From contig NZ_FNIE01000006.1 in the NCBI RefSeq assembly GCF_900103985.1, forward strand, positions 62,001-126,000: 64,000 nucleotides of DNA, written 5' to 3'. A program made the translations under genes and the position numbers. The notes beneath the pieces were generated by a model. It was given only the letters and a program-made list of their open reading frames with translations. It did not search any database and was not told the origin of the DNA. Shown here one piece after another: positions 38,227 through 50,762 of the stretch (positions are counted from its first letter, which is position 1; each line of letters starts with the position of its first letter). This stretch comes from Actinacidiphila guanduensis (lineage in GTDB: Bacteria; Actinomycetota; Actinomycetes; Streptomycetales; Streptomycetaceae).

Positions 38227-40797
38227 CTAGTCGGTGGCGATGGCGTTGAGGACGTTCATCCGCGCGGCCCGGAAGGCCGGCAGGAGCGCGGCCAGCAGGC
38301 CGACCACCGCGGAGGCGACGAAGACCACCACGATCGTCGTCCAGGGGATCTGGAGGATGCCCAGGCCCTGGGAGGCCAGCACCCGCTGGGCGGTGGAGCC
38401 CCAGCCGAGGCCGAGGCCCAGGCCCACCACCGCGCCGAAGAGCGCGATGACCACCGACTCCAGCCGGATCATCCGGCGCATCTGGCGGCGCGAGGTGCCG
38501 ATCGCGCGCATCAGGCCGATCTCCCGGGTCCGCTCCACCACCGACAGCGCCAGGGTGTTGACCACGCCGAGCACCGCCACGATGATCGCCAGCGCCAGCA
38601 GCGCGTAGATCATGTAGAGCAGCTGGTTGACCTGATTGCGGATCAGTTTCTTGTAGTCCGCCTGGTTGCGTACGTCGATCTGCGGGTAGTCGTGCGCGGC
38701 CGCCTTCAGGGAGGCGTACGCCTGCGCCGCCTTACCGTCGGATGCCTTGGCGAACATCATGAAGTCGCCGGGCATCCGGTCGGCGGGCAGGTAGCTGCGG
38801 GCGGTGCTGATCGCGGTGAACATGGTGCCGTGCTCGATGGCGGTGTCGTCACTGGTGACTGCGGCGACCTTCAGGTGCGCGGTGCGGCCGCCGACGAAGG
38901 CGACGGTCATGGTGTCGCCGACCTTGACGTGGTTGTCCTTGGCGAAGCCCTCGGGCACCGACATGGCGTCCTTGCCGTAGGCGTCGGAGAGGCGGCCGGA
39001 GACGGTGTCCAGTCGCAGGTCCTCGGGATAGGTCGGGGAGGCGGCGCTGAGCTCGTCCTTGACCTTCTTGCCGGACGGGGTGGTCAGGGTGGCGTTGACG
39101 ATCGTGTAGTCGGTGAAGCGGGCGATGTCACGGGCCGACCTGATCGCCTTGGCAGCGGCCGGGGTGATGGGCTGGTTGCCGTTGCTGCCGACCTGGATGA
39201 TGAAGTCCGCGCCGACGGACTTGTCGAGCTGGTCGTTGGCGGAGGCCACCATGGAGGAGCCGACCACCGACATCCCCGCGACCAGGGCCAGTCCGATCAT
39301 CAGCGCGGAGGCGGTCGCCCCGGTGCGGCGCGGGTTGCGCAGCGCGTTGCGCTCGGCGAGCCGGCCCATGGGTCCGAAGAAGCGCAGGCTGAGGGCGCTG
39401 ACCGCGCGGACCACGACGCCGGCGAGCAGCGGGCCGACGATGACGAAGCCCACCAGGGTGAGCAGCACGCCGAGCCCGAGCAGTCCGCCGCCGGACGCGG
39501 CCTTGTCCGCCTGGGAGGCGCCGACCAGCGCCAGGGCGCCCGCCGCGCACACCAGGATGCCGAGCGCGGCCCTGATCCGGCCGGTGCGGGCGTCGGCCGG
39601 GGTGCCGGCGTCGCGCAGGGCGGCCATCGGGGAGATCCGCCCGGCCCGGCGGGCGGGCACGTAGGCGGAGACCACGGTCACCAGGACGCCGATCGCCAGG
39701 CCGACGAGCGGGGTGGTCGCCTTGATGGTCAGCTCGGAGGTGTCGAGCTTCAAACCGGCCTTGCCCATGAGCTTCATCAGGCCGACGGCCAGGCCGATGC
39801 CGCCGCCGATGCCGGCCACCGAGCCGGTGACGCCGAGCATCACGGCCTCGATCAGCACCGAGCGGTTGACCTGGCGCCTGCTGGAGCCCAGCGCCCGCAT
39901 CAGGCCGATCTCCCTGGTGCGCTGGGCGACCAGCATGGAGAACGTGTTGACGATCAGGAAGATGCCGACCAGGACGGCGATCCCGGCGAAGCCGAGCATC
40001 GCGTACTTCATGAAGTCCAGGAAGCCGCCGAGGTCGTCCTTCTCCTTCTTGGTGGTCTCGGCCGCGGTGTCGACGGTGTAGCCGCGGCCGATGACCGCTT
40101 GGACGTTCGCCTTGAGCTGCGCGTCGGTGACGCCCTTGGCGGCGGTCAGGCCGAAGCCGGTGTAGGCGTCGGTGCGGCCGAGCAGCTTGGCCTGCGCGGT
40201 GGGGGTGTCCACGTACACCACGGCGGCGCCGGGGTTGGTGGACTTGAAGGTGACGATGCCGGTCAGGGTGACGCGGAAGTCGCCCGGCTGGGCGATGACC
40301 CGCAGGGTGTCGCCGAGCTTGAGGTGCTTGGCCTTGGCGGTGTCGGCGTCGATCACCGCGTCGTCGGGGCCCTGGGGCAGGTGGCCCGAGGTGAGGCCGA
40401 CGGCCTTGGTCTCGGTGGCGTCCCAGTTGCTGACGATGGTCGGTGCGCCCGAGGACGGGCTGATCCTGTCGTTGTGCGCGTCGGCGACGGTGACGTCCTG
40501 GCTGGTGACGTCGGGCACCGCGGAGGCGACGCCGGGGACGTGGGCGAGCGTGCCCCGCAGGGCGGCCGGCACGGTGTCCGGGATGCCGGTCGCCTGCTCG
40601 TGCTTGACCTCCTTGGCGCTCACGGTGACGTCGGAGGCGGTGTTGCCGAAGAGTTTGTCGAAGGTCGCGGTCATCGTGTCGGTGAAGACGAGGGTGCCGC
40701 AGATGAACGCCACCGACAGCAGGACGGCGACGCCGGAGAGGGCCATGCGGCCCTTGTGCGCGAAGAAGTTGCGCACCGAGGTCTTCATGACGGTCAC
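38227..40797 (-). CDS. ABC transporter permease, MacB/FtsX type
   Basis: 856 aa with two FtsX-like permease halves: an N-terminal membrane segment (MALSGVAVLLSVAFICGTLVF), a periplasmic-type MacB_PCD domain, three helices with the conserved RTREIGLMRALGSSRRQ. The same pattern is repeated in the second half (RTREIGLMRAIGTSRRQ, near the C-terminus). This type couples ATP use to export or to lipoprotein/cell-wall processes. The GTG at 40795-40797 overlaps the ATPase stop by 4 nt with GGGAGG upstream; an ATG 9 nt downstream is an alternative. The substrate is unknown. Confidence 0.9.
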   Translation of the reverse strand: MTVMKTSVRNFFAHKGRMALSGVAVLLSVAFICGTLVFTDTMTATFDKLFGNTASDVTVSAKEVKHEQATGIPDTVPAALRGTLAHVPGVASAVPDVTSQDVTVADAHNDRISPSSGAPTIVSNWDATETKAVGLTSGHLPQGPDDAVIDADTAKAKHLKLGDTLRVIAQPGDFRVTLTGIVTFKSTNPGAAVVYVDTPTAQAKLLGRTDAYTGFGLTAAKGVTDAQLKANVQAVIGRGYTVDTAAETTKKEKDDLGGFLDFMKYAMLGFAGIAVLVGIFLIVNTFSMLVAQRTREIGLMRALGSSRRQVNRSVLIEAVMLGVTGSVAGIGGGIGLAVGLMKLMGKAGLKLDTSELTIKATTPLVGLAIGVLVTVVSAYVPARRAGRISPMAALRDAGTPADARTGRIRAALGILVCAAGALALVGASQADKAASGGGLLGLGVLLTLVGFVIVGPLLAGVVVRAVSALSLRFFGPMGRLAERNALRNPRRTGATASALMIGLALVAGMSVVGSSMVASANDQLDKSVGADFIIQVGSNGNQPITPAAAKAIRSARDIARFTDYTIVNATLTTPSGKKVKDELSAASPTYPEDLRLDTVSGRLSDAYGKDAMSVPEGFAKDNHVKVGDTMTVAFVGGRTAHLKVAAVTSDDTAIEHGTMFTAISTARSYLPADRMPGDFMMFAKASDGKAAQAYASLKAAAHDYPQIDVRNQADYKKLIRNQVNQLLYMIYALLALAIIVAVLGVVNTLALSVVERTREIGLMRAIGTSRRQMRRMIRLESVVIALFGAVVGLGLGLGWGSTAQRVLASQGLGILQIPWTTIVVVFVASAVVGLLAALLPAFRAARMNVLNAIATD

Positions 40798-41582
40798 GAC
40801 GTCCTCCCGCGGCCGTCGAAGGACTTCATGCGCTCCAGCACGGTCTCGGCGGTGGGGTCGGCCATGTCGTCGACGATGCGGCCGTCGGCGAGGTAGAGCA
40901 CGCGGTCGGCGTAGGAGGCGGCGACCGGGTCGTGGGTGACCATCACGATGGTCTGGCCGAGTTCGTCCACCGAGCGGCGCAGGAAGCCGAGCACCTCGGC
41001 GCCGGCCCGCGAGTCCAGGTTGCCGGTCGGCTCGTCGCCGAAGATGATCTCGGGCCGCGCGGCCAGGGCGCGGGCCACGGCGACGCGCTGCTGCTGGCCG
41101 CCGGAGAGCTGGGTGGGGCGGTGCTTGAGCCGGCCGCCGAGGCCGACGGTCTCCACGACGCGGTCCATCCAGTCGCGGTCGACCCTGCGGCCTGCGATGT
41201 CCATCGGAAGGGTGACGTTCTCCGCCGCGTTGAGCGTCGGCAGCAGGTTGAAGGACTGGAAGATGAAGCCGATCTTGTCCCGCCTCAGCCGGGTGAGCTT
41301 CTTGTCCTTCAGCCCGGTGATCTCGGTCCCGCCGATCCAGATGCGGCCCTCGGTGACCGTGTCGAGCCCGGCCAGGCAGTGCATCAGGGTGGACTTGCCC
41401 GAGCCGGAGGGGCCCATGATCGCGGTGAAGCGGCCGCGGACGATGTCCACGTCGACCGCGTCGAGCGCCACCACGCGGGTCTCCCCCGCGCCGTACGCCT
41501 TGGTCACCGAGCGCCCCGCCGCGGCAACGGCCGAACGTTCTCCGCTGCCCCCAGCCGTGGGAACCGTCATAGCCGTCGTCAC
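40794..41582 (-). CDS. ABC transporter ATP-binding protein, LolD/MacB type
   Basis: 262-aa nucleotide-binding subunit for the adjacent FtsX-type permease. Walker A GPSGSGKST, signature LSGGQQQR, Walker B IIFGDEPTG and the LolD-type NLDS motif, followed by the H-loop VTHDP. The 4-nt overlap with the permease ensures equal synthesis. The GTG at 41580-41582 has GGGAGA 8 nt upstream; the frame is open further, but upstream codons lack coding character. A TetR-type regulator gene lies 425 bp upstream on the same strand and may control it. Confidence 0.92.
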   Translation of the reverse strand: MTTAMTVPTAGGSGERSAVAAAGRSVTKAYGAGETRVVALDAVDVDIVRGRFTAIMGPSGSGKSTLMHCLAGLDTVTEGRIWIGGTEITGLKDKKLTRLRRDKIGFIFQSFNLLPTLNAAENVTLPMDIAGRRVDRDWMDRVVETVGLGGRLKHRPTQLSGGQQQRVAVARALAARPEIIFGDEPTGNLDSRAGAEVLGFLRRSVDELGQTIVMVTHDPVAASYADRVLYLADGRIVDDMADPTAETVLERMKSFDGRGRTS

Positions 41583-41759
41583 TTCTGTCTCCCGTTGGGT
41601 GTGTTCGCGTGTCCGGTGTGCTCTTCGGTGTTCTTCAGCCTGCTGGACGGGCCGCCGCCGCACGATGGGGCGGGTCCCCGGCTTCGGGGTGGGGCTGTCC
41701 CCACCCCCGGCCAGGCGGCACCTCGCGGTCTGCTCTTCGAAGGTATGCAGCGCGGGAGA

Positions 41760-41821
41760 GGCGATCGTCATCCGCCGGAACGAACCGCCGATCGCCCGAA
41801 GTAGGTGCCTCCCCCTAGGGG
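41760..41821. promoter_or_regulatory. Palindrome-rich region upstream of the ABC operon
   Basis: GGCGATCG (41760-41767) and CGATCGCC (41789-41796) form an inverted repeat, and CCCCTAGGGG (41812-41821) is a perfect palindrome. They are 180-240 bp upstream of the ATPase gene within the gap 41583-42007, which also has duplicated GGCCCAGTCAG words at its right end. Regulatory roles are inferred. Confidence 0.35.
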
Positions 41822-42007
41822 TCTGCCACCTGGGTCGCACATCGGCTTCAGGGTCGACGGCCCCGGTCGTACGGGCCTCGTACGGGCCTCCTGCGGTCCC
41901 GTTGCGACCGCGCTGCAGGTCCGGTGCGAAGCCGCTGCGGGACCCTGGCGCCCCATCAGACGCGGTCAGGCCCAGTCAGAGGCCCAGTCAGGCCTAATCG
42001 AGCGCGG

Positions 42008-44061: not shown

Positions 44062-44853
44062 ATGCGCATCGCCCGAATCGCCGCAGTGCTGCCCGTGCTG
44101 GTGCTCGCGGCCGCCTGCTCCTCAGGCTCCTCCGGCTCCCACACCGCCCGGCCCGACGGCACCGCCTCACCGGTGGCCGCGGTCAACGGCCGGGCGCCTT
44201 TGAGCCTGGCCCAGTTGACCCGCGCGCTCGTCACCGACAGCGACGTGCCCGGCTGGGTGGTCCAGATGACCGCCACGGACGACGGCACGCAGACCACCGC
44301 GCCCGAGGAGTTCGACCCCGACGACCTCGCCGCCCAGGACGACAGCAGCGGCCGGTCGCTGCTCGTCGCCGACAAGGCGGACTGCCAGCCGCTCGCCGAT
44401 GTGACGAGCAGTCAGCCGCGCATCCACCGCATGGCGTCGGTCGGCGCCACCTTCGCGCGGGAGACCGCCACGGCGAAGGCCGCCCCCGACGAGCTCGACC
44501 AGATGCTGATCTCCTCCCACGCACCCGGCGACGCGCAGAAGGTGATGGCCTCCCTGCGCTCGGCGCTGGCCGCCTGCACCTCCTTCAAGGGGCGCAGCGA
44601 GGGCGGCGGGCTCACCCCCTTCACCATCGCGAAGGGACCGGCGGTCCGGGTCGGCGACGACGCCCTGTCGTTCGTCATGGACGACACCGCCGACAAGAAG
44701 TCCGGCGCCGCCCTGGTGACGGTGGTGCACACCGGCGACACCGTCACCTCCTACATCTCGATGCGCGCCAAGGGCGGCGCGGGCACGGTGCCGCTGGCGG
44801 TGGCCCGCAAGCAGGACCAGAAGCTCAGGGCGGCGCTCGCCGCGCGGAAGTAG
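44062..44853 (+). CDS. Lipoprotein, paralogue A
   Basis: 263 aa. Lipobox LAAAC (Cys19) then a Ser/Gly linker and a compact globular domain. Shared with the next gene are SDVPGWVVQM versus KDVPHVAMSP, the motif DCQPLAD, a helix ending in AACTSFKG/RTCHGYS, and the C-terminus with KLRAALAARK/KLRAEQKAG. The fold resembles sensor-type actinobacterial lipoproteins (LpqN/PknH-sensor-like) by its paired cysteines, but I cannot assign it. Exposed on the outer face of the membrane. Confidence 0.82.
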   Translation: MRIARIAAVLPVLVLAAACSSGSSGSHTARPDGTASPVAAVNGRAPLSLAQLTRALVTDSDVPGWVVQMTATDDGTQTTAPEEFDPDDLAAQDDSSGRSLLVADKADCQPLADVTSSQPRIHRMASVGATFARETATAKAAPDELDQMLISSHAPGDAQKVMASLRSALAACTSFKGRSEGGGLTPFTIAKGPAVRVGDDALSFVMDDTADKKSGAALVTVVHTGDTVTSYISMRAKGGAGTVPLAVARKQDQKLRAALAARK

Positions 44854-45036
44854 CGGCGGCTTCGTGAGCATCCTGTGAGCAGCGCCATAGGAGGCGGGGC
44901 GGGCCCGGTGCCGTAGAGTCGCGCGGCAGCGGGCCGTCGCCCCGGGACGGGGGCGGTGGAGTCGCGCCGGAAGCGGCGCGCGGGACCAGGGACCGCGCCG
45001 CGCCCGAAGGGCCGTTCACGACAGGGGTGCTCACAG

Positions 45037-45750
45037 ATGCGGATACGTGCTCGCAGCGGCGTACTGACCGGTAGTCGCGGGTTGCTGCCCGTCGCCGCCG
45101 CCCTGGTGCCCGTGCTCGCCCTCACGGCGGCCTGCGGCTCGTCGAAGAAGCCGCTCACCCCCGCCCAGCAGATCACCAAGTCGCTGCTGACCTCCAAGGA
45201 CGTCCCGCACGTGGCGATGTCGCCGTCCACCGCCACCACCCAGCTGCTCGGCGGCGCCCAGCGGGCGAGCAGGCCCGACTGCCAGCCGCTGGCCGACCAG
45301 TGGAGCAGCAAGCCCTCCCGCTACACCCCGCTCGTCTACACCGGCGGCGTGCTGACCGACACCGCGGCCAAGGACAAGAACGCCAAGACGATCAGCCTGG
45401 AGGCGATCGCCCTCTACAAGCCCGGCCAGGCGAAGTCCGTCCTGGACGCCCTGGCGGCCGCCCTGCGCACCTGCCACGGCTACTCCACCACCCGCGGCGG
45501 GGCCACCAGCACCTTCACCGTCACCCCCGGGAGCGCCTCCGGCCCCCGGCTCGGCGACCAGCAGGTCGTGTACACCGTGCGCGATCCGAAACTCGGCGCC
45601 TCGGGCACGGTGCTGGTCACCGTCGTACGGGCGGGCGATGCCACCGCGGCCTACGAGACGGTCCGCGCCGACCACAAGGCGGCCGCGCTGCGGCCGGCGA
45701 TCGCGCTGAAGCAGACCGCGAAGCTGCGCGCGGAGCAGAAGGCGGGCTGA
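45037..45750 (+). CDS. Lipoprotein, paralogue B
   Basis: 237 aa, tandem paralogue of the preceding lipoprotein. Lipobox LTAAC (about 29-33), then SSKKPLTPAQQITKSLLTSKDVP. DCQPLADQWSS and GYSTTRGGATSTFTVTP align with paralogue A. The 183-bp gap between the genes suggests separate promoters or a processed transcript. The ATG at 45037 follows CAGGGG by about 10 nt; the upstream frame is Arg-rich. Function unknown; its placement inside the toxin/immunity locus may or may not be meaningful. Confidence 0.82.
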   Translation: MRIRARSGVLTGSRGLLPVAAALVPVLALTAACGSSKKPLTPAQQITKSLLTSKDVPHVAMSPSTATTQLLGGAQRASRPDCQPLADQWSSKPSRYTPLVYTGGVLTDTAAKDKNAKTISLEAIALYKPGQAKSVLDALAAALRTCHGYSTTRGGATSTFTVTPGSASGPRLGDQQVVYTVRDPKLGASGTVLVTVVRAGDATAAYETVRADHKAAALRPAIALKQTAKLRAEQKAG

Positions 45751-45944: not shown

Positions 45945-46955
45945 ATGACGACAGGCCGGCAGGGGTTGGGAGCACCTCCCGGACCCGCAGCCGAGGGTCG
46001 ACCCGCGCCACCCAACGCGGCCTACGCCGGACAGGTCGTGCACTTCCCCGACCCGCTCCGGGCGGCCCGGCATCCGCAGGGCGTGTGGGTGGACGAGGAC
46101 GGCTACCCCGACTTCTCGCCGTACGCCCGCGCGGCCGCCGAGATCGCCGAGCCGCCCGAGGGCTTCGGCGTGGACGAACTGCGCCTGACCGACTACGTGT
46201 CGGCGAACGCGGCGCTGCACGCCGCGGGCCACGAGCTGTGGGGCAGCCTGCCCCCGGTCGCCACCCCGCACGGCTGGACCTGGCACCACGTGCACGGCAC
46301 CCGCCGCCTGGAGCTGATCCCGGTGGAGGTCAAGGCCCTGCTGCGGCACCACGGCGGGCTCGCCACCTCCGCGGCCGACCACGCCAAGCGCGGCACCCGC
46401 CCGCTGCAGGAGACCCGCCCGGTGCACTTCGGCCTGCCGAAGGACCCGCTGTCGGTGACGGAGCAGCAGGTACGCGACGTGGAGGAGGAGTTGGGGTACC
46501 GGCTGCCGGGCGCCTACCGCACCTTCCTGAAGGCGGCCGGCGGCTGCGCCCCCAAGGGCGTCGCCCTGGACCCGGAGTTGGGGCTGCTGATCGACCAGCC
46601 CTTCTTCACCGTCCGCGACGAGGCCGCGGTCAACGACGTGGTGTACGTGAACAAGTGCCTGCGCGACCACCTGACCAAGGACTACCTCGCGATCGGGTAC
46701 GTGCAGGGCGGCCTGCTCGCGGTGAAGGTCAGGGGCGAGCGGACCGGCTCGGTCTGGTTCTGCGCCTACGACGACGTGCGCGACGGCGACCGCTGGGCCA
46801 CCCCCGCCGACCGCGTGGCCGAACTGCTGCTGCCCTGCGGCGACACGCTCGACGCGTTCCTGCTGCGCCTGGCCGGCAACCCGCCCGAGCTGGACACGGT
46901 GGCGAACCTGATGGTGGACGGCGGCTTCGCCGGCGCCGTCCCGGTGGAGGGGTAG
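45945..46955 (+). CDS. WHH/LHH-type nuclease domain fused to SMI1/SUKH
   Basis: 336 aa. The N-terminal half shows the HNH-superfamily toxin pattern: GVWVDEDGYPDFSPYA (46-61), then HELWGSLP and GWTWHHVHG with His114/His115, IPVEVKALLRHHGG with His135/His136. The C-terminal half (about 166-310) is an SMI1/KNR4 (SUKH-1) domain: VTEQQVRDVEEELGYRLPGAY, AAGGCAPKG. Toxin and immunity folds thus sit in one polypeptide with no export signal. It may be a self-inhibited nuclease or an immunity protein carrying a dead domain. It is followed after 9 bp by the 906-aa gene, so the two are cotranscribed. The ATG at 45945 lacks a strong ribosome-binding site. Confidence 0.8.
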   Translation: MTTGRQGLGAPPGPAAEGRPAPPNAAYAGQVVHFPDPLRAARHPQGVWVDEDGYPDFSPYARAAAEIAEPPEGFGVDELRLTDYVSANAALHAAGHELWGSLPPVATPHGWTWHHVHGTRRLELIPVEVKALLRHHGGLATSAADHAKRGTRPLQETRPVHFGLPKDPLSVTEQQVRDVEEELGYRLPGAYRTFLKAAGGCAPKGVALDPELGLLIDQPFFTVRDEAAVNDVVYVNKCLRDHLTKDYLAIGYVQGGLLAVKVRGERTGSVWFCAYDDVRDGDRWATPADRVAELLLPCGDTLDAFLLRLAGNPPELDTVANLMVDGGFAGAVPVEG

Positions 46956-46964
46956 GCAGCAGCC

Positions 46965-49685
46965 ATGGTCACGTTCGCACAGGCGCAGGAGCGCGCCGAG
47001 CGCTGGATCAACGCCGACGTTCCGGCGTACGCCACCCGGGAGATCCGGGTGCGCGAGTTCGACCTCGGGTTCGTCGTGTGGTCCGAGCCCCGGGAGGACG
47101 GCCCGTCCTCCGACGACGGCTCGGTGCGGGTGGTCATCGCCCGCGACACCGGGGAGGCCACCTTGTGGCCCGCCCTGCCCATCGGCGAGCTCGTCCGCCG
47201 CTACCAGGAGGAGTACGGCCAGGTGCCCACCGACGCGGTGCCCGAGCCGCCCCGGCGCCTCGACCTGGAGGCGACCTCCTTCCTGCTGAGCCCGCCGCAG
47301 TGGCTGCAGGACGCCGCCGACCGGATGGGCATCCCCGACCGCCGCACCCAGGAGCGGGAGGGCTCCTCCGGTGCGGCGGGCGGCAGTTCGGACGGGCCGG
47401 GTGCCGGCGCGGCCGACCCGCAGCCGTCCCGGATCGACTACCGGCGGCCGGACGGCGCCGGCTTCGAGACACCCGCGGCCGCCGCCGTGCCCCCCGCCGA
47501 ATCCGCGCCCGTCCGAGGCGATGCACCCGGCGCCGGCGGCATCGACTACCGCAAGCCCGGCAGCACCCCCGAGCCCGCAGCGCCGGTCGACCAGCCGGTC
47601 GACCGACTGCGGCCGGGCGCGGTGCCCGCGCAGGGCAGGGGCGCGTCCGCCGAGCCGGACGGGCAGACGCCCGGGCACGCGGGCGTGGACTTCCGCCGTC
47701 CGGCCGCCGCTCCCGCCGCGGACGGCGGGAGCTGGGCGGGCAAGACGGTCAGCGACTCGGGCGAGCACCAGTCGGTGCCGGTGCCCGAGACGGTGTTCGC
47801 GCCGCCGATCACCGACGCCGACATCCCCGAGCAGCCGCCGGTCTCCGCCGAGGCGCGCACCGAACTGCTGCCGAGCGGCAGTTCGCTGCCCCCGACGCGG
47901 ATCGCCCCCGCGCAGCAGGAGCAGCAGGAGCAGCCGGCTGCGCCCCGTCCCGGGGTGCCGCACACGATCGGCGGTTCGCCGTACCCGCCGCCGGGCGGCC
48001 CCTCGGTCCCCCTGCCGCCGCCGGTCGGCGCCCGGCAGGGCACCCCGCCGCCCCCCGGTGCCGCCGACATCGCCGACCTGGAGACGGCGAAGGCCACGCC
48101 GGGCAGCGTGCCGCCGCCGTACGGGGGCACGCCCCGGCCGCCCGCGGGCCCGGGCACGCCGCCCCCAGCGAGCGCCGACCCGCACTACGCGGCCACCATG
48201 CTCGCCGGCCCCGGCGTACCCCCGCCGCCCCCGGGCGCCGGCACCCCGCCGCCGCCCCCCGGCGCGGGCACGCCCCCGCCGCCCGGGGGCCAGGGCACGC
48301 CCCCGCCCGGGAACCCGCACTACGCCGCGACCATGCTCGCCACCCCCGGCAGCACTCCCCCGCCGCCCGGCGCCGGAACGCCGCCCCCGCCGCCTCCGGG
48401 CGTGGGCGCCCCGCCGCCCGCCGGCGGCAATCCGCACTACGCGGCCACCATGCTGGCCGGCCCCGGCATGCCCCCGCCGGGCGCGGGCGGTCCCCCGCCG
48501 CCTCCCGGGGCAGGCGCCCCGCCGCCCGGGGCGGGCGACCCGCACTACGCGGCGACGATGCTCGCGGGCCCGGGGCTGCCGCCGCCCGGCGCGGGCGGAC
48601 CGCCGCCTCCGCCCGGCGCGGGCCCCGGCATGCCGCCGCCCGGTGCCGGGATGGCGCCGCCACCGCCGCCGGCCTACGGCTACCCGCAGGGCGGCAACGT
48701 GCCGACGGTGGGCCCCGGTTACATGGCCGTGCTGCGCTACCGCGGCCAGGACGGCAGCGAGCAGCAGCTCATCCGGCGTTCGGCGCCCGGCACCCCGCAC
48801 CCGGAGTGGCAGATCCTGCACGAGCTGCGCTCGCTCGGCGTGCGCCCGGAGCAGGTGCTCGAACTCCACACCGAGCTGGAGTCCTGCGACCTGCCGGGCG
48901 GCTACTGCACCCGGATGATCCGCGAGACCTGGCCGCAGGTGCGCATCAGCCACACCGCGCCCTACGGCCGTGACCACGCGAGCCGCCGCCAGGGCGTCCA
49001 GCACCTTCTGACGCACCAGGGCGAGCTGCACCAGGTGGCGGGCGCGCCGGCCAGGCCGCAGCCGCAGCGGGTGCCGATGCCCGACCCGCACGCGGTGCTG
49101 CGGGTGCCGCCGGTCGGCCTGGACGTGATCGGCCAGGAGCTCGCGGGGGCGTTCGGCCCGCAGGGCGTCTTCCGGTTCGACCAGCGCGCGGTGTCCCGGC
49201 AGGGCGTGCCGGACATCGTGGCGCAGACGCTGGTGTGGTCCGGGCTGCCGGTCGACTTCTCGCCGTTCTTCTGGGCGCAGGCCCAGCCGGGCCAGCCGGT
49301 GCCGACCCTGGCCGAACTCGCCGCGCAGCGCGGGGTGCAGCCGGCCCCGGACGCCGGGTCGTACCTGGTGATGGGGAACGACTTCGGCCGCCAGCTGTGC
49401 GTGCAGTACGGCACCGCGCACATCGTCGCGGTGCCGCTGGAGGCGGGGCCCGGCGGGCAGCCGGTGCCGCCGCAGTTCGTGAACTCCAGCCTGCCGGAGT
49501 TCGCCCGCTGCCTGGCGCTGCTGGGCCGGATGTGGCGGCTGCGGATAGGGCTCACGCCCGAGCAGGCCGGGCGCTGGACGGTGGACTTCCAGGCGGAGTT
49601 GGCCGCGCAGGACCCGGCGGCGGTGGCGTCGCCGGACAACTGGTGGTCGGTGCTGGTCGAGCAGATGTGGGACGGCCTGCTGTAG
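46965..49685 (+). CDS. YrhB-like / repetitive linker / deaminase-like / SUKH-4-like fusion protein
   Basis: 906 aa. Residues 1-85 resemble the YrhB immunity fold (FAQAQERAERWINA, GFVVWSEP). About 130-270 is linker with three (I/V)D(Y/F)R(R/K)P motifs (157, 193, 241). About 330-570 is a Pro/Gly tract with PHYAATML at 406, 451, 490 and 526. At 585-670 there is a small deaminase-like domain with HPE (612-614) and a paired Cys641/Cys648. About 700-906 resembles SUKH-4 (FVNSSLPEFARCLALL, NWWSVLVEQMWDGLL). No signal peptide or membrane segment. It is coupled to the preceding nuclease-SUKH gene (9-bp gap; GGAGGGG lies in the end of that gene). A strong terminator follows. Domain assignments are by pattern and need profile searches. 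Confidence 0.8.
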   Translation: MVTFAQAQERAERWINADVPAYATREIRVREFDLGFVVWSEPREDGPSSDDGSVRVVIARDTGEATLWPALPIGELVRRYQEEYGQVPTDAVPEPPRRLDLEATSFLLSPPQWLQDAADRMGIPDRRTQEREGSSGAAGGSSDGPGAGAADPQPSRIDYRRPDGAGFETPAAAAVPPAESAPVRGDAPGAGGIDYRKPGSTPEPAAPVDQPVDRLRPGAVPAQGRGASAEPDGQTPGHAGVDFRRPAAAPAADGGSWAGKTVSDSGEHQSVPVPETVFAPPITDADIPEQPPVSAEARTELLPSGSSLPPTRIAPAQQEQQEQPAAPRPGVPHTIGGSPYPPPGGPSVPLPPPVGARQGTPPPPGAADIADLETAKATPGSVPPPYGGTPRPPAGPGTPPPASADPHYAATMLAGPGVPPPPPGAGTPPPPPGAGTPPPPGGQGTPPPGNPHYAATMLATPGSTPPPPGAGTPPPPPPGVGAPPPAGGNPHYAATMLAGPGMPPPGAGGPPPPPGAGAPPPGAGDPHYAATMLAGPGLPPPGAGGPPPPPGAGPGMPPPGAGMAPPPPPAYGYPQGGNVPTVGPGYMAVLRYRGQDGSEQQLIRRSAPGTPHPEWQILHELRSLGVRPEQVLELHTELESCDLPGGYCTRMIRETWPQVRISHTAPYGRDHASRRQGVQHLLTHQGELHQVAGAPARPQPQRVPMPDPHAVLRVPPVGLDVIGQELAGAFGPQGVFRFDQRAVSRQGVPDIVAQTLVWSGLPVDFSPFFWAQAQPGQPVPTLAELAAQRGVQPAPDAGSYLVMGNDFGRQLCVQYGTAHIVAVPLEAGPGGQPVPPQFVNSSLPEFARCLALLGRMWRLRIGLTPEQAGRWTVDFQAELAAQDPAAVASPDNWWSVLVEQMWDGLL
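48177..48563 (+). repeat. In-frame repeat array encoding (D/N)PHYAATMLA units
   Basis: Four copies of a 9-10-residue unit (residues 405-414, 450-459, 489-498, 525-534) are set in Pro/Gly-rich spacers of 36, 30 and 27 residues. At DNA level the cores CGCACTAC-GCGGC-ACCATGCT are nearly identical while spacers drift, which suggests selection on the peptide. Confidence 0.85.
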
Positions 49686-49865: not shown

Positions 49866-50762
49866 ATGAGCAGCGAGACGACCGCATCGGCGAGGGCACA
49901 CACGCGGGGCGGGTTCGCCCCCGCCCGGGGCCGCGGGTACCGGCCGGACCAGGTGGACCGGTTTCTGGACGAGTTGTCGGAGGACCGGGACGCGGCGTGG
50001 GAGCGGGCGGCGCGGCTCACCGTCCTCGCCAACGAGATGGAGGCGGAGTGCGCGGCCCTGCGCCGGCAGGTGGAGGCGCTCGGCCCGGCCGACTTCGCAA
50101 CGCTCGGCCCGGGGGCGCAGGAGCTGCTGCAGATGGTGGAGGAGGAGGCCGCGGCCGTACGCGAGCGGGCCGAGGTCGAGGCGCAGTACGCGCGGGACGC
50201 GGCCGACACCGCGCGGCGCACCCTGCAGGACGAGGCGCGCGCGGCGGCCTCCGCGCGGCTGGCCGCCGCCGAGGAGCAGGCGCAGCGGGTGCTGGACGAG
50301 GCATGCGGGCAGGCCGCGGAGATCCTGGGCTCCGCCCGGTCCGAGGCGGACTCGGTACGGGGCGGGGCCGCGGCGGCGCTCGACGCGGTACGGCAGCAGG
50401 CGGGGCAGGACGCCGCGGCCGCCGACACCGAGCAGCGCGGGCGGCTCCAGTCGCTGGAGCACGAACTCGCCGAGCAGCAGGCGGTGGTGGAGGGGCGGCT
50501 GAACGGTCTGCTCGCCGACGCCGAGCGGCGCCTGGCAGAGGCGCAGCGCGAACGGAGTGCGGCGGAGGACATGCTGCGCAGGCGGCAGGCCGAGGCCGAC
50601 GCCCGTGCCGACCAGCTCATCGAGCAGGCGCGGCTGCACGAGGAGCGGGTGCGGCGCGAGGCCGAGCGGGTGCTGCGGGAGCACGAGCAGCACCGGGACG
50701 AAGTGCGGGCACACCTCGCTCACATCCGGGCGACGCTTGCAGGTATCACGGGGCGCGGCTAG
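49866..50762 (+). CDS. DivIVA-like coiled-coil protein
   Basis: 298 aa. Residues 15-40 (FAPARGRGYRPDQVDRFLDEL) match the DivIVA membrane-targeting N-terminus, and nearly all of the rest (about 40-285) is a Glu/Ala/Arg/Gln-rich coiled coil with a short break near 85-100. Streptomycetes carry several such cytoskeletal-type proteins for polar growth; this one is often labelled cellulose-binding protein without good reason. It probably forms filaments or a scaffold at the membrane. Start: ATG at 49866 after GGGGCAGAGGCC. Monocistronic. Confidence 0.85.
   Translation: MSSETTASARAHTRGGFAPARGRGYRPDQVDRFLDELSEDRDAAWERAARLTVLANEMEAECAALRRQVEALGPADFATLGPGAQELLQMVEEEAAAVRERAEVEAQYARDAADTARRTLQDEARAAASARLAAAEEQAQRVLDEACGQAAEILGSARSEADSVRGGAAAALDAVRQQAGQDAAAADTEQRGRLQSLEHELAEQQAVVEGRLNGLLADAERRLAEAQRERSAAEDMLRRRQAEADARADQLIEQARLHEERVRREAERVLREHEQHRDEVRAHLAHIRATLAGITGRG

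Follow-up and report, generated by a model that had tools for sequence, protein, structure and literature searches.

A family-wide gene of Streptomycetaceae joins a toxin-type deaminase to a SUKH-4 immunity-type domain

What is the role of a chromosomal protein in which a deaminase domain from a toxin family is fused to an immunity-type domain in a single chain? The question is raised by a gene, here called gene D, in a 64,000-nucleotide stretch of the Actinacidiphila guanduensis genome (contig NZ_FNIE01000006.1, positions 62,001 to 126,000), which we refer to as the window and whose own numbering is used below; features are on the plus strand unless stated otherwise. Gene D (46965..49685) encodes a 906-residue protein composed of an N-terminal domain, a disordered-type linker, an XOO_2897-like deaminase domain and a SUKH-4 domain, as defined by its open reading frame, Pfam matches and orthologs. 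The reading that we favour, on which our judgement is evenly balanced, is that the product is a domesticated, cytosolic and catalytically competent deaminase, which the SUKH-4 part of the chain restrains in cis and which motifs in the linker direct to its place.

The reading frame extends from an ATG at 46965 to a stop at 49685 (906 codons), and the GC content at its three codon positions (0.79/0.62/0.96) is as in coding frames of the host genome; the very long minus-strand open reading frame across the gene is a high-GC shadow. A first-pass annotation, made from the sequence without database searches, had proposed this frame and domain order, including a low-complexity linker of about 480 residues, and these hold, with the N-domain at about residues 1–86, a linker of about 450 residues (about 131–575), the deaminase at 583–683 and SUKH-4 at 723–900. 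Full-length orthologs recur throughout a bacterial family, and the arrangement is therefore not due to chance. NCBIfam gave no match for the gene D product, and a PDB sequence search returned no confident relatives for it or for the product of the WHH gene next to it.

The deaminase domain (48711..49013) matches PF14440 over a wide margin (E 1.3e-36; 125.2 bits, cut-off 27), and the SUKH-4 domain (49131..49664) matches PF14435 (E 2.8e-51; 174.6 bits, cut-off 25.5), so that the earlier labels, a deaminase-like domain with HPE and a spaced cysteine pair followed by a SUKH-4-like domain, are both borne out. An AlphaFold2 model of residues 577–906, built with 80 orthologs, has a mean predicted local distance difference test score (pLDDT) of 85 and a predicted template modelling score (pTM) of 0.86, and shows a strand-strand-helix-strand-helix-strand-helix topology followed by the SUKH part. 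His612-Pro613-Glu614 (48798..48806), the predicted zinc ligand and proton shuttle, has His612 and Glu614 at the start of helix 1, and of the two other predicted ligands, spaced as C-x6-C (48885..48908), Cys641 lies just after strand 3, whereas Cys648 begins helix 2; His612, Cys641 and Cys648, the site named in the annotation as the point to check, thus occupy the positions expected of the zinc site of a deaminase. The top Foldseek match is APOBEC3H (E 2.5e-4, probability 1.00), with DddA (6u08) also listed, and in the VIA comparison model residues 4–90 match cytidine deaminases with Z 7–7.7 and a root-mean-square deviation (rmsd) of 2.0–3.3 over 73–79 residues; for Vibrio cholerae CDA, Z is 7.7 at an rmsd of 2.6 over 77 residues. 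Model residues 138–324 match the SUKH folds of 2icg (Z 8.1, rmsd 3.2 over 135 residues), YobK (7.9) and the Knr4 core (7.2), and 2prv is a further fold match. The pTM of 0.86 spans two domains, and the deaminase and SUKH-4 are therefore predicted to be placed relative to each other with confidence, as in-cis inhibition would need.

The annotation had enclosed the deaminase between two immunity-type domains, and this stands for SUKH-4 but not securely for the N-terminal domain (46965..47222), whose YrhB label is weak. Its AlphaFold2 model (pLDDT 72 overall, about 80 over residues 1–90) is an alpha+beta fold with a helix, four strands and a helix, and we call it tentatively YrhB/Imm35-like from a weak profile match: hmmscan gives no Pfam match at E<1, the YrhB/Imm35 profile PF15567 is below its curated cut-off here and has no matches anywhere in the host genome, HHalign against Imm35 members returns probabilities of 13–31% (0.5% for a reversed decoy), and structural comparison of the model yields no clear match.

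The distribution of gene D was followed in 294 genomes of the order, 279 of them Streptomycetaceae. The deaminase/SUKH-4 unit is present in 277 of the 279 and fragments of gene D in the other two, and the gene is thus carried by 279/279. Its apparent absence from two genomes (G140 and G240) was rejected, as contig ends cut gene D inside the repetitive linker and the WHH gene is intact. Gene D is absent from the neighbouring families, and the host genome holds a single PF14440 match. Judged from these sequences, gene D is a vertically inherited core gene of the whole family.

Among 170 gene D orthologs, His612, Glu614, Cys641 and Cys648 are unchanged in all, with variation in the residues between the two cysteines. 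An exact DNA pattern for HPEWQ...CDLPGGYC occurs in 36 of the 294 genomes; the loss of the active site that this tally suggested was rejected, the differences being Asp-to-Glu and similar changes between the cysteines, with the four catalytic residues kept. The ratio of nonsynonymous to synonymous substitution rates (dN/dS) within the genus is 0.081 for the deaminase domain, the lowest among 11 segments measured, compared with 0.132 for SUKH-4, 0.148 for the WHH domain, 0.142 for ppc, 0.30 for the downstream coiled coil and 0.63–0.65 for upstream lipoproteins. On these rates, the deaminase domain evolves slowly under strong purifying selection, and in this it is unlike a polymorphic toxin.

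The linker (residues 131–575; 47355..48689) is 28% Pro, 17% Gly and 16% Ala, together 61%, and varies from 270 to 975 residues among orthologs, yet it and its borders hold conserved islands, counted in 114 orthologs and compared with shuffled linkers, in which 0–3 would be expected. A linker-proximal segment, DLEATSFLLSPPQWLQDAADRMGIPDRR (about residues 99–126; 47259..47342), includes TSFLL, found as TSF[LM][LI] in 114/114, and PP-x-WL (113/114). TVFAP (residues 276–280; 47790..47804) belongs to a TV[FLY]AP motif seen in 98/114, against 0.25 expected after shuffling, and PTQ[LM] occurs in 64/114. Four copies of HYAATMLA follow, at residues 407–414 (48183..48206), 452–459 (48318..48341), 491–498 (48435..48458) and 527–534 (48543..48566); AATMLA-type repeats are present in 108 of the orthologs, mostly in three or four copies, and a DNA pattern encoding AATMLA occurs four times in gene D and once elsewhere in the host genome, where a control pattern has one match. 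Most of the islands consist of Thr followed by hydrophobic residues, and binding by a forkhead-associated (FHA) domain to phosphothreonine within them is a guess. We note that the linker seems frameshifted or interrupted in 5 of 119 orthologs (L040, L109, L113, L164 and L186), which may reflect either errors made in sequencing the GC-rich proline repeats or a genuine change of phase.

The gene D deaminase shares with the XOO_2897-like family the PF14440 profile, HxE with two cysteines and the deaminase fold, but differs from the canonical toxins, which can be thousands of residues long and in which the domain lies at the C-terminus and mostly has H-[AS]-E and PC-x(n)-C; the gene D domain is internal and has the H-P-E and C-x6-C of the SUKH-4-linked deaminases. 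In a tree with long branches and a midpoint root, the SUKH-4-linked deaminases form one group (support 100/96) with the canonical XOO_2897 toxins outside it, and within that group the core gene D and two linkerless paralogs are sisters (99/96). The SUKH-4 domain has the full-profile match and fold of PF14435 immunity proteins and departs from the usual members in being fused C-terminally to a deaminase, in having no adjacent toxin gene, and in belonging to a family-wide core gene.

Several of the relatives are found in toxin loci. In five loci (L052, L054, L055, L058 and L059) the gene next after that for a secreted-type XOO_2897 toxin encodes a SUKH-4/deaminase fusion in which the two domains stand in reverse order. 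The active site of these five fusions is apparently intact; here an immunity gene itself bears a toxin-type domain, and an AAA/WD40 gene comes after the fusion in L052 and L058. The fusions beside WXG100-type deaminase toxins (L052–L059 and L251–L266) share with gene D the domain families, the H-P-E/C-x6-C signature and the clade, but have SUKH-4 first and neither N-domain nor long linker, and they are sporadic, with several in toxin loci. The two linkerless N-domain/deaminase/SUKH-4 paralogs (L065, 8862–10382; L068, 5179–6516) have the domain order of gene D and form its sister clade, but lack the Pro-rich linker, have lost the His and both Cys zinc ligands, and lie a few kb from genes for WXG100_2/Gln_amidase/XOO_2897 toxins of about 1490 residues. 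Both also adjoin a gene for about 655 residues that resembles the AAA/WD40 genes elsewhere and has no Pfam match. In genome G037, a D-type N-domain is fused to a YwqJ-like deaminase (L291, 6918–7628, minus strand), and the gene adjoins a SUKH-3 gene and a Gln_amidase/Scabin-like toxin gene. By the loci of these relatives and the G037 fusion, the N-domain/deaminase/SUKH plan is modular and at home in toxin–immunity loci, with gene D as a domesticated descendant.

Gene D has a constant companion. The gene at 45945..46955, which ends 9 bases before it, encodes a WHH nuclease domain, of the HNH type, joined to SUKH-1 (PF14414 and PF09346), and it lies upstream on the same strand in all 116 loci with enough sequence. 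Like gene D, it joins a toxin-type domain to its usual immunity-type domain and is always adjacent; unlike gene D, it carries an HNH-type nuclease in which Lys replaces a catalytic-type His, and it is older. The motif set of Tox-WHH domains is WHH, L, H and HxG (PMC3482391). In the domain here, numbered from 45996, W96 H97 H98, L107 and H118 H119 are invariant (118/118), as is Lys113, at the place of which the Rhs WHH toxins have His; W-H-H in Streptomycetaceae contrasts with W-[VAT]-H in a sister family, where the first His is lost. The invariant Lys and the sister-family motif are the reasons to think that the WHH domain, unlike the deaminase, may be altered or inactive. By its occurrence at the same mfd–ppc locus in the sister family, the WHH/SUKH-1 gene is judged older than gene D. 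The four sister-family loci (L287–L290) have WHH/SUKH-1 without gene D, between mfd and ppc in three and beside mfd in the fourth; vertical descent has thus retained an apparently degenerate nuclease with its attached immunity domain there as well.

Downstream of gene D, a coiled-coil protein with a DivIVA domain (49866..50762; TIGR03544/PF05103) is encoded in 134 of 138 loci. The flanking genes (ABC transporter, histidine kinase, ppc and mfd) are inverted relative to the gene D block between lineages, with the block itself intact. From gene order, the coiled-coil protein is probably the counterpart of Streptomyces coelicolor SCO3114, an mCherry fusion of which is diffuse (PMC2680258), and by the same inference SCO3115 would correspond to gene D and SCO3116 to the WHH gene; we found no mention of SCO3115 or SCO3116 in the literature searched. 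SCO3113, which is overexpressed in whiA and whiH mutants, does not correspond to gene D in this order, and we did not draw on it. Upstream of the WHH gene are two tandem lipoprotein-like genes (44062–44853 and 44956–45750), the second matching PF14032 (PknH_C); they evolve fast (dN/dS about 0.64) and are missing at that spot in many Streptomyces. Farther upstream, an FtsX-like ABC transporter (38227–41840, minus strand) is, by gene order, probably the counterpart of SCO3110/3111, which has been linked to the response to cell-envelope antibiotics (PMC3123327) and to an interaction with PkaI, a kinase (PMC4416010).

How might such a protein work? The annotation had suggested self-inhibition that a trigger at the linker could relieve, and this is partly supported. 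Gene D descends from SUKH-4-linked deaminases adjoining secreted deaminase toxins and would have settled at a single chromosomal position early in the history of Streptomycetaceae. Its product would be a nucleic-acid or nucleotide deaminase, restrained in cis by the C-terminal SUKH-4, and would serve as a housekeeping or developmental enzyme together with the adjacent WHH/SUKH-1 fusion and often the coiled-coil protein encoded next. The AATMLA, TSFLL and TVFAP motifs would recruit a partner, and binding or modification at the linker would either position the enzyme or relax the hold of SUKH-4 on it. DddA, an SCP1.201 deaminase, and DddI offer a parallel, as a deaminase toxin of bacteria and the dedicated inhibitor that restrains it, but there toxin and immunity protein are separate chains, the toxin is secreted, and the deaminase family is different.

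The main rival to a deaminase clamped by its own SUKH-4 is an immunity or decoy function, which we think unlikely: SUKH-4 would neutralise incoming XOO_2897-type toxins, and the attached deaminase, bound as a mimic, would gate SUKH-4 until the real toxin took its place. The position of the nearest relatives, directly downstream of secreted XOO_2897 toxins, and the loss of zinc ligands in the two linkerless paralogs of toxin loci speak for it, whereas the core gene has invariant catalytic residues in its slowest-evolving segment, no XOO_2897-family toxin gene is found near gene D and the PF14440 match in the host genome is the only one, and immunity genes, unlike the family-wide gene D, are usually patchy. 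We are more doubtful of a housekeeping deaminase that is constitutively active, with a SUKH-4 domain that is structural or recruits substrate, like eukaryotic SUKH proteins such as Knr4, and does not inhibit. Slow evolution and a housekeeping-like distribution are as it would predict, and the SUKH-4 model does match the folds of the Knr4 core and FBXO3; SUKH-4 is, however, otherwise tied to toxins, and the permuted order in relatives, with SUKH-4 first, would be easier to explain if SUKH-4 binds the deaminase than if it forms a fixed channel for substrate.

Two further readings match the distribution of gene D poorly. Abortive infection, in which a trigger from a phage or plasmid would act at the linker and free both the deaminase and the WHH nuclease, is improbable, even though a multicellular bacterium here joins each of two nuclease-type effector domains to a domain of inhibitor type, and the conflict systems described for such bacteria include some whose inactive copies of enzymes may be decoys (PMC7159879). 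PADLOC has no match for the three genes (gene D, WHH and coiled-coil), and a PHROGs comparison gave nothing useful; defence genes are patchy and fast-evolving whereas the gene D/WHH pair is core and slow, and the WHH domain has its invariant Lys for the toxin His and orthologs in the sister family without the first His of the motif. That gene D encodes a secreted polymorphic toxin is very improbable and largely refuted: PF14440 is a toxin family (PMC3482391), but a Pfam scan found no WXG/ESX or other trafficking domain, the toxin domain is internal with an immunity domain in the same chain, and there is no polymorphism in the 279 genomes and no toxin-domain swapping in the 170 orthologs.

Several points weigh against the favoured reading of a competent, SUKH-4-restrained deaminase. 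In the deaminase domain 41 of 116 positions (35%) are invariant, and at this base rate the constancy of the four catalytic residues is by itself modest evidence, a support for catalysis and not proof of it. The dead-site linkerless paralogs keep the architecture, and the wider family may therefore have a role other than catalysis. The alignment behind the AlphaFold2 model is shallow (65–96% identity), one Streptomycetaceae genus from another sample (G035) has neither gene D nor the WHH gene, and no phenotype for gene D was found in the papers searched.

Fusions of SUKH to toxin domains are known in general terms (PMC3482391). In the literature searched, outside which lay the founding Nucleic Acids Research papers of 2011 on SUKH and deaminases, we found no family-wide core pair of toxin–immunity fusions in which the deaminase site never varies and the linker has motifs private to the gene, and a catalytically conserved core-genome version of the known SUKH–toxin architecture appears to be undescribed there. 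Should the clamp exist, gene D may supply a naturally restrained deaminase of interest to builders of base editors.

Taken together, the locus suggests a weapon-and-antidote pair turned into a built-in component of the cell. As a tentative extension, less probable than the favoured reading itself, two toxin–immunity fusions may have been domesticated ancestrally in Streptomycetaceae into one core complex, in which the SUKH-4-clamped, motif-addressed deaminase and WHH/SUKH-1 would modify bases in nucleic acids of the cell itself in a programmed manner, for editing, mutagenesis, turnover or developmental cell death. Toxin deaminases of this group have been proposed as the source of eukaryotic editing enzymes (Iyer et al. 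2011, as cited in a passage of PMC7159879), and gene D would then be a bacterial parallel to that exaptation. A bacterium that keeps a toxin-type deaminase as a conserved, vertically inherited component is hardly documented, and with an intact site, a family-wide gene and tractable strains in the main antibiotic-producing genera, the step from weapon to housekeeping is directly testable in Streptomycetaceae.

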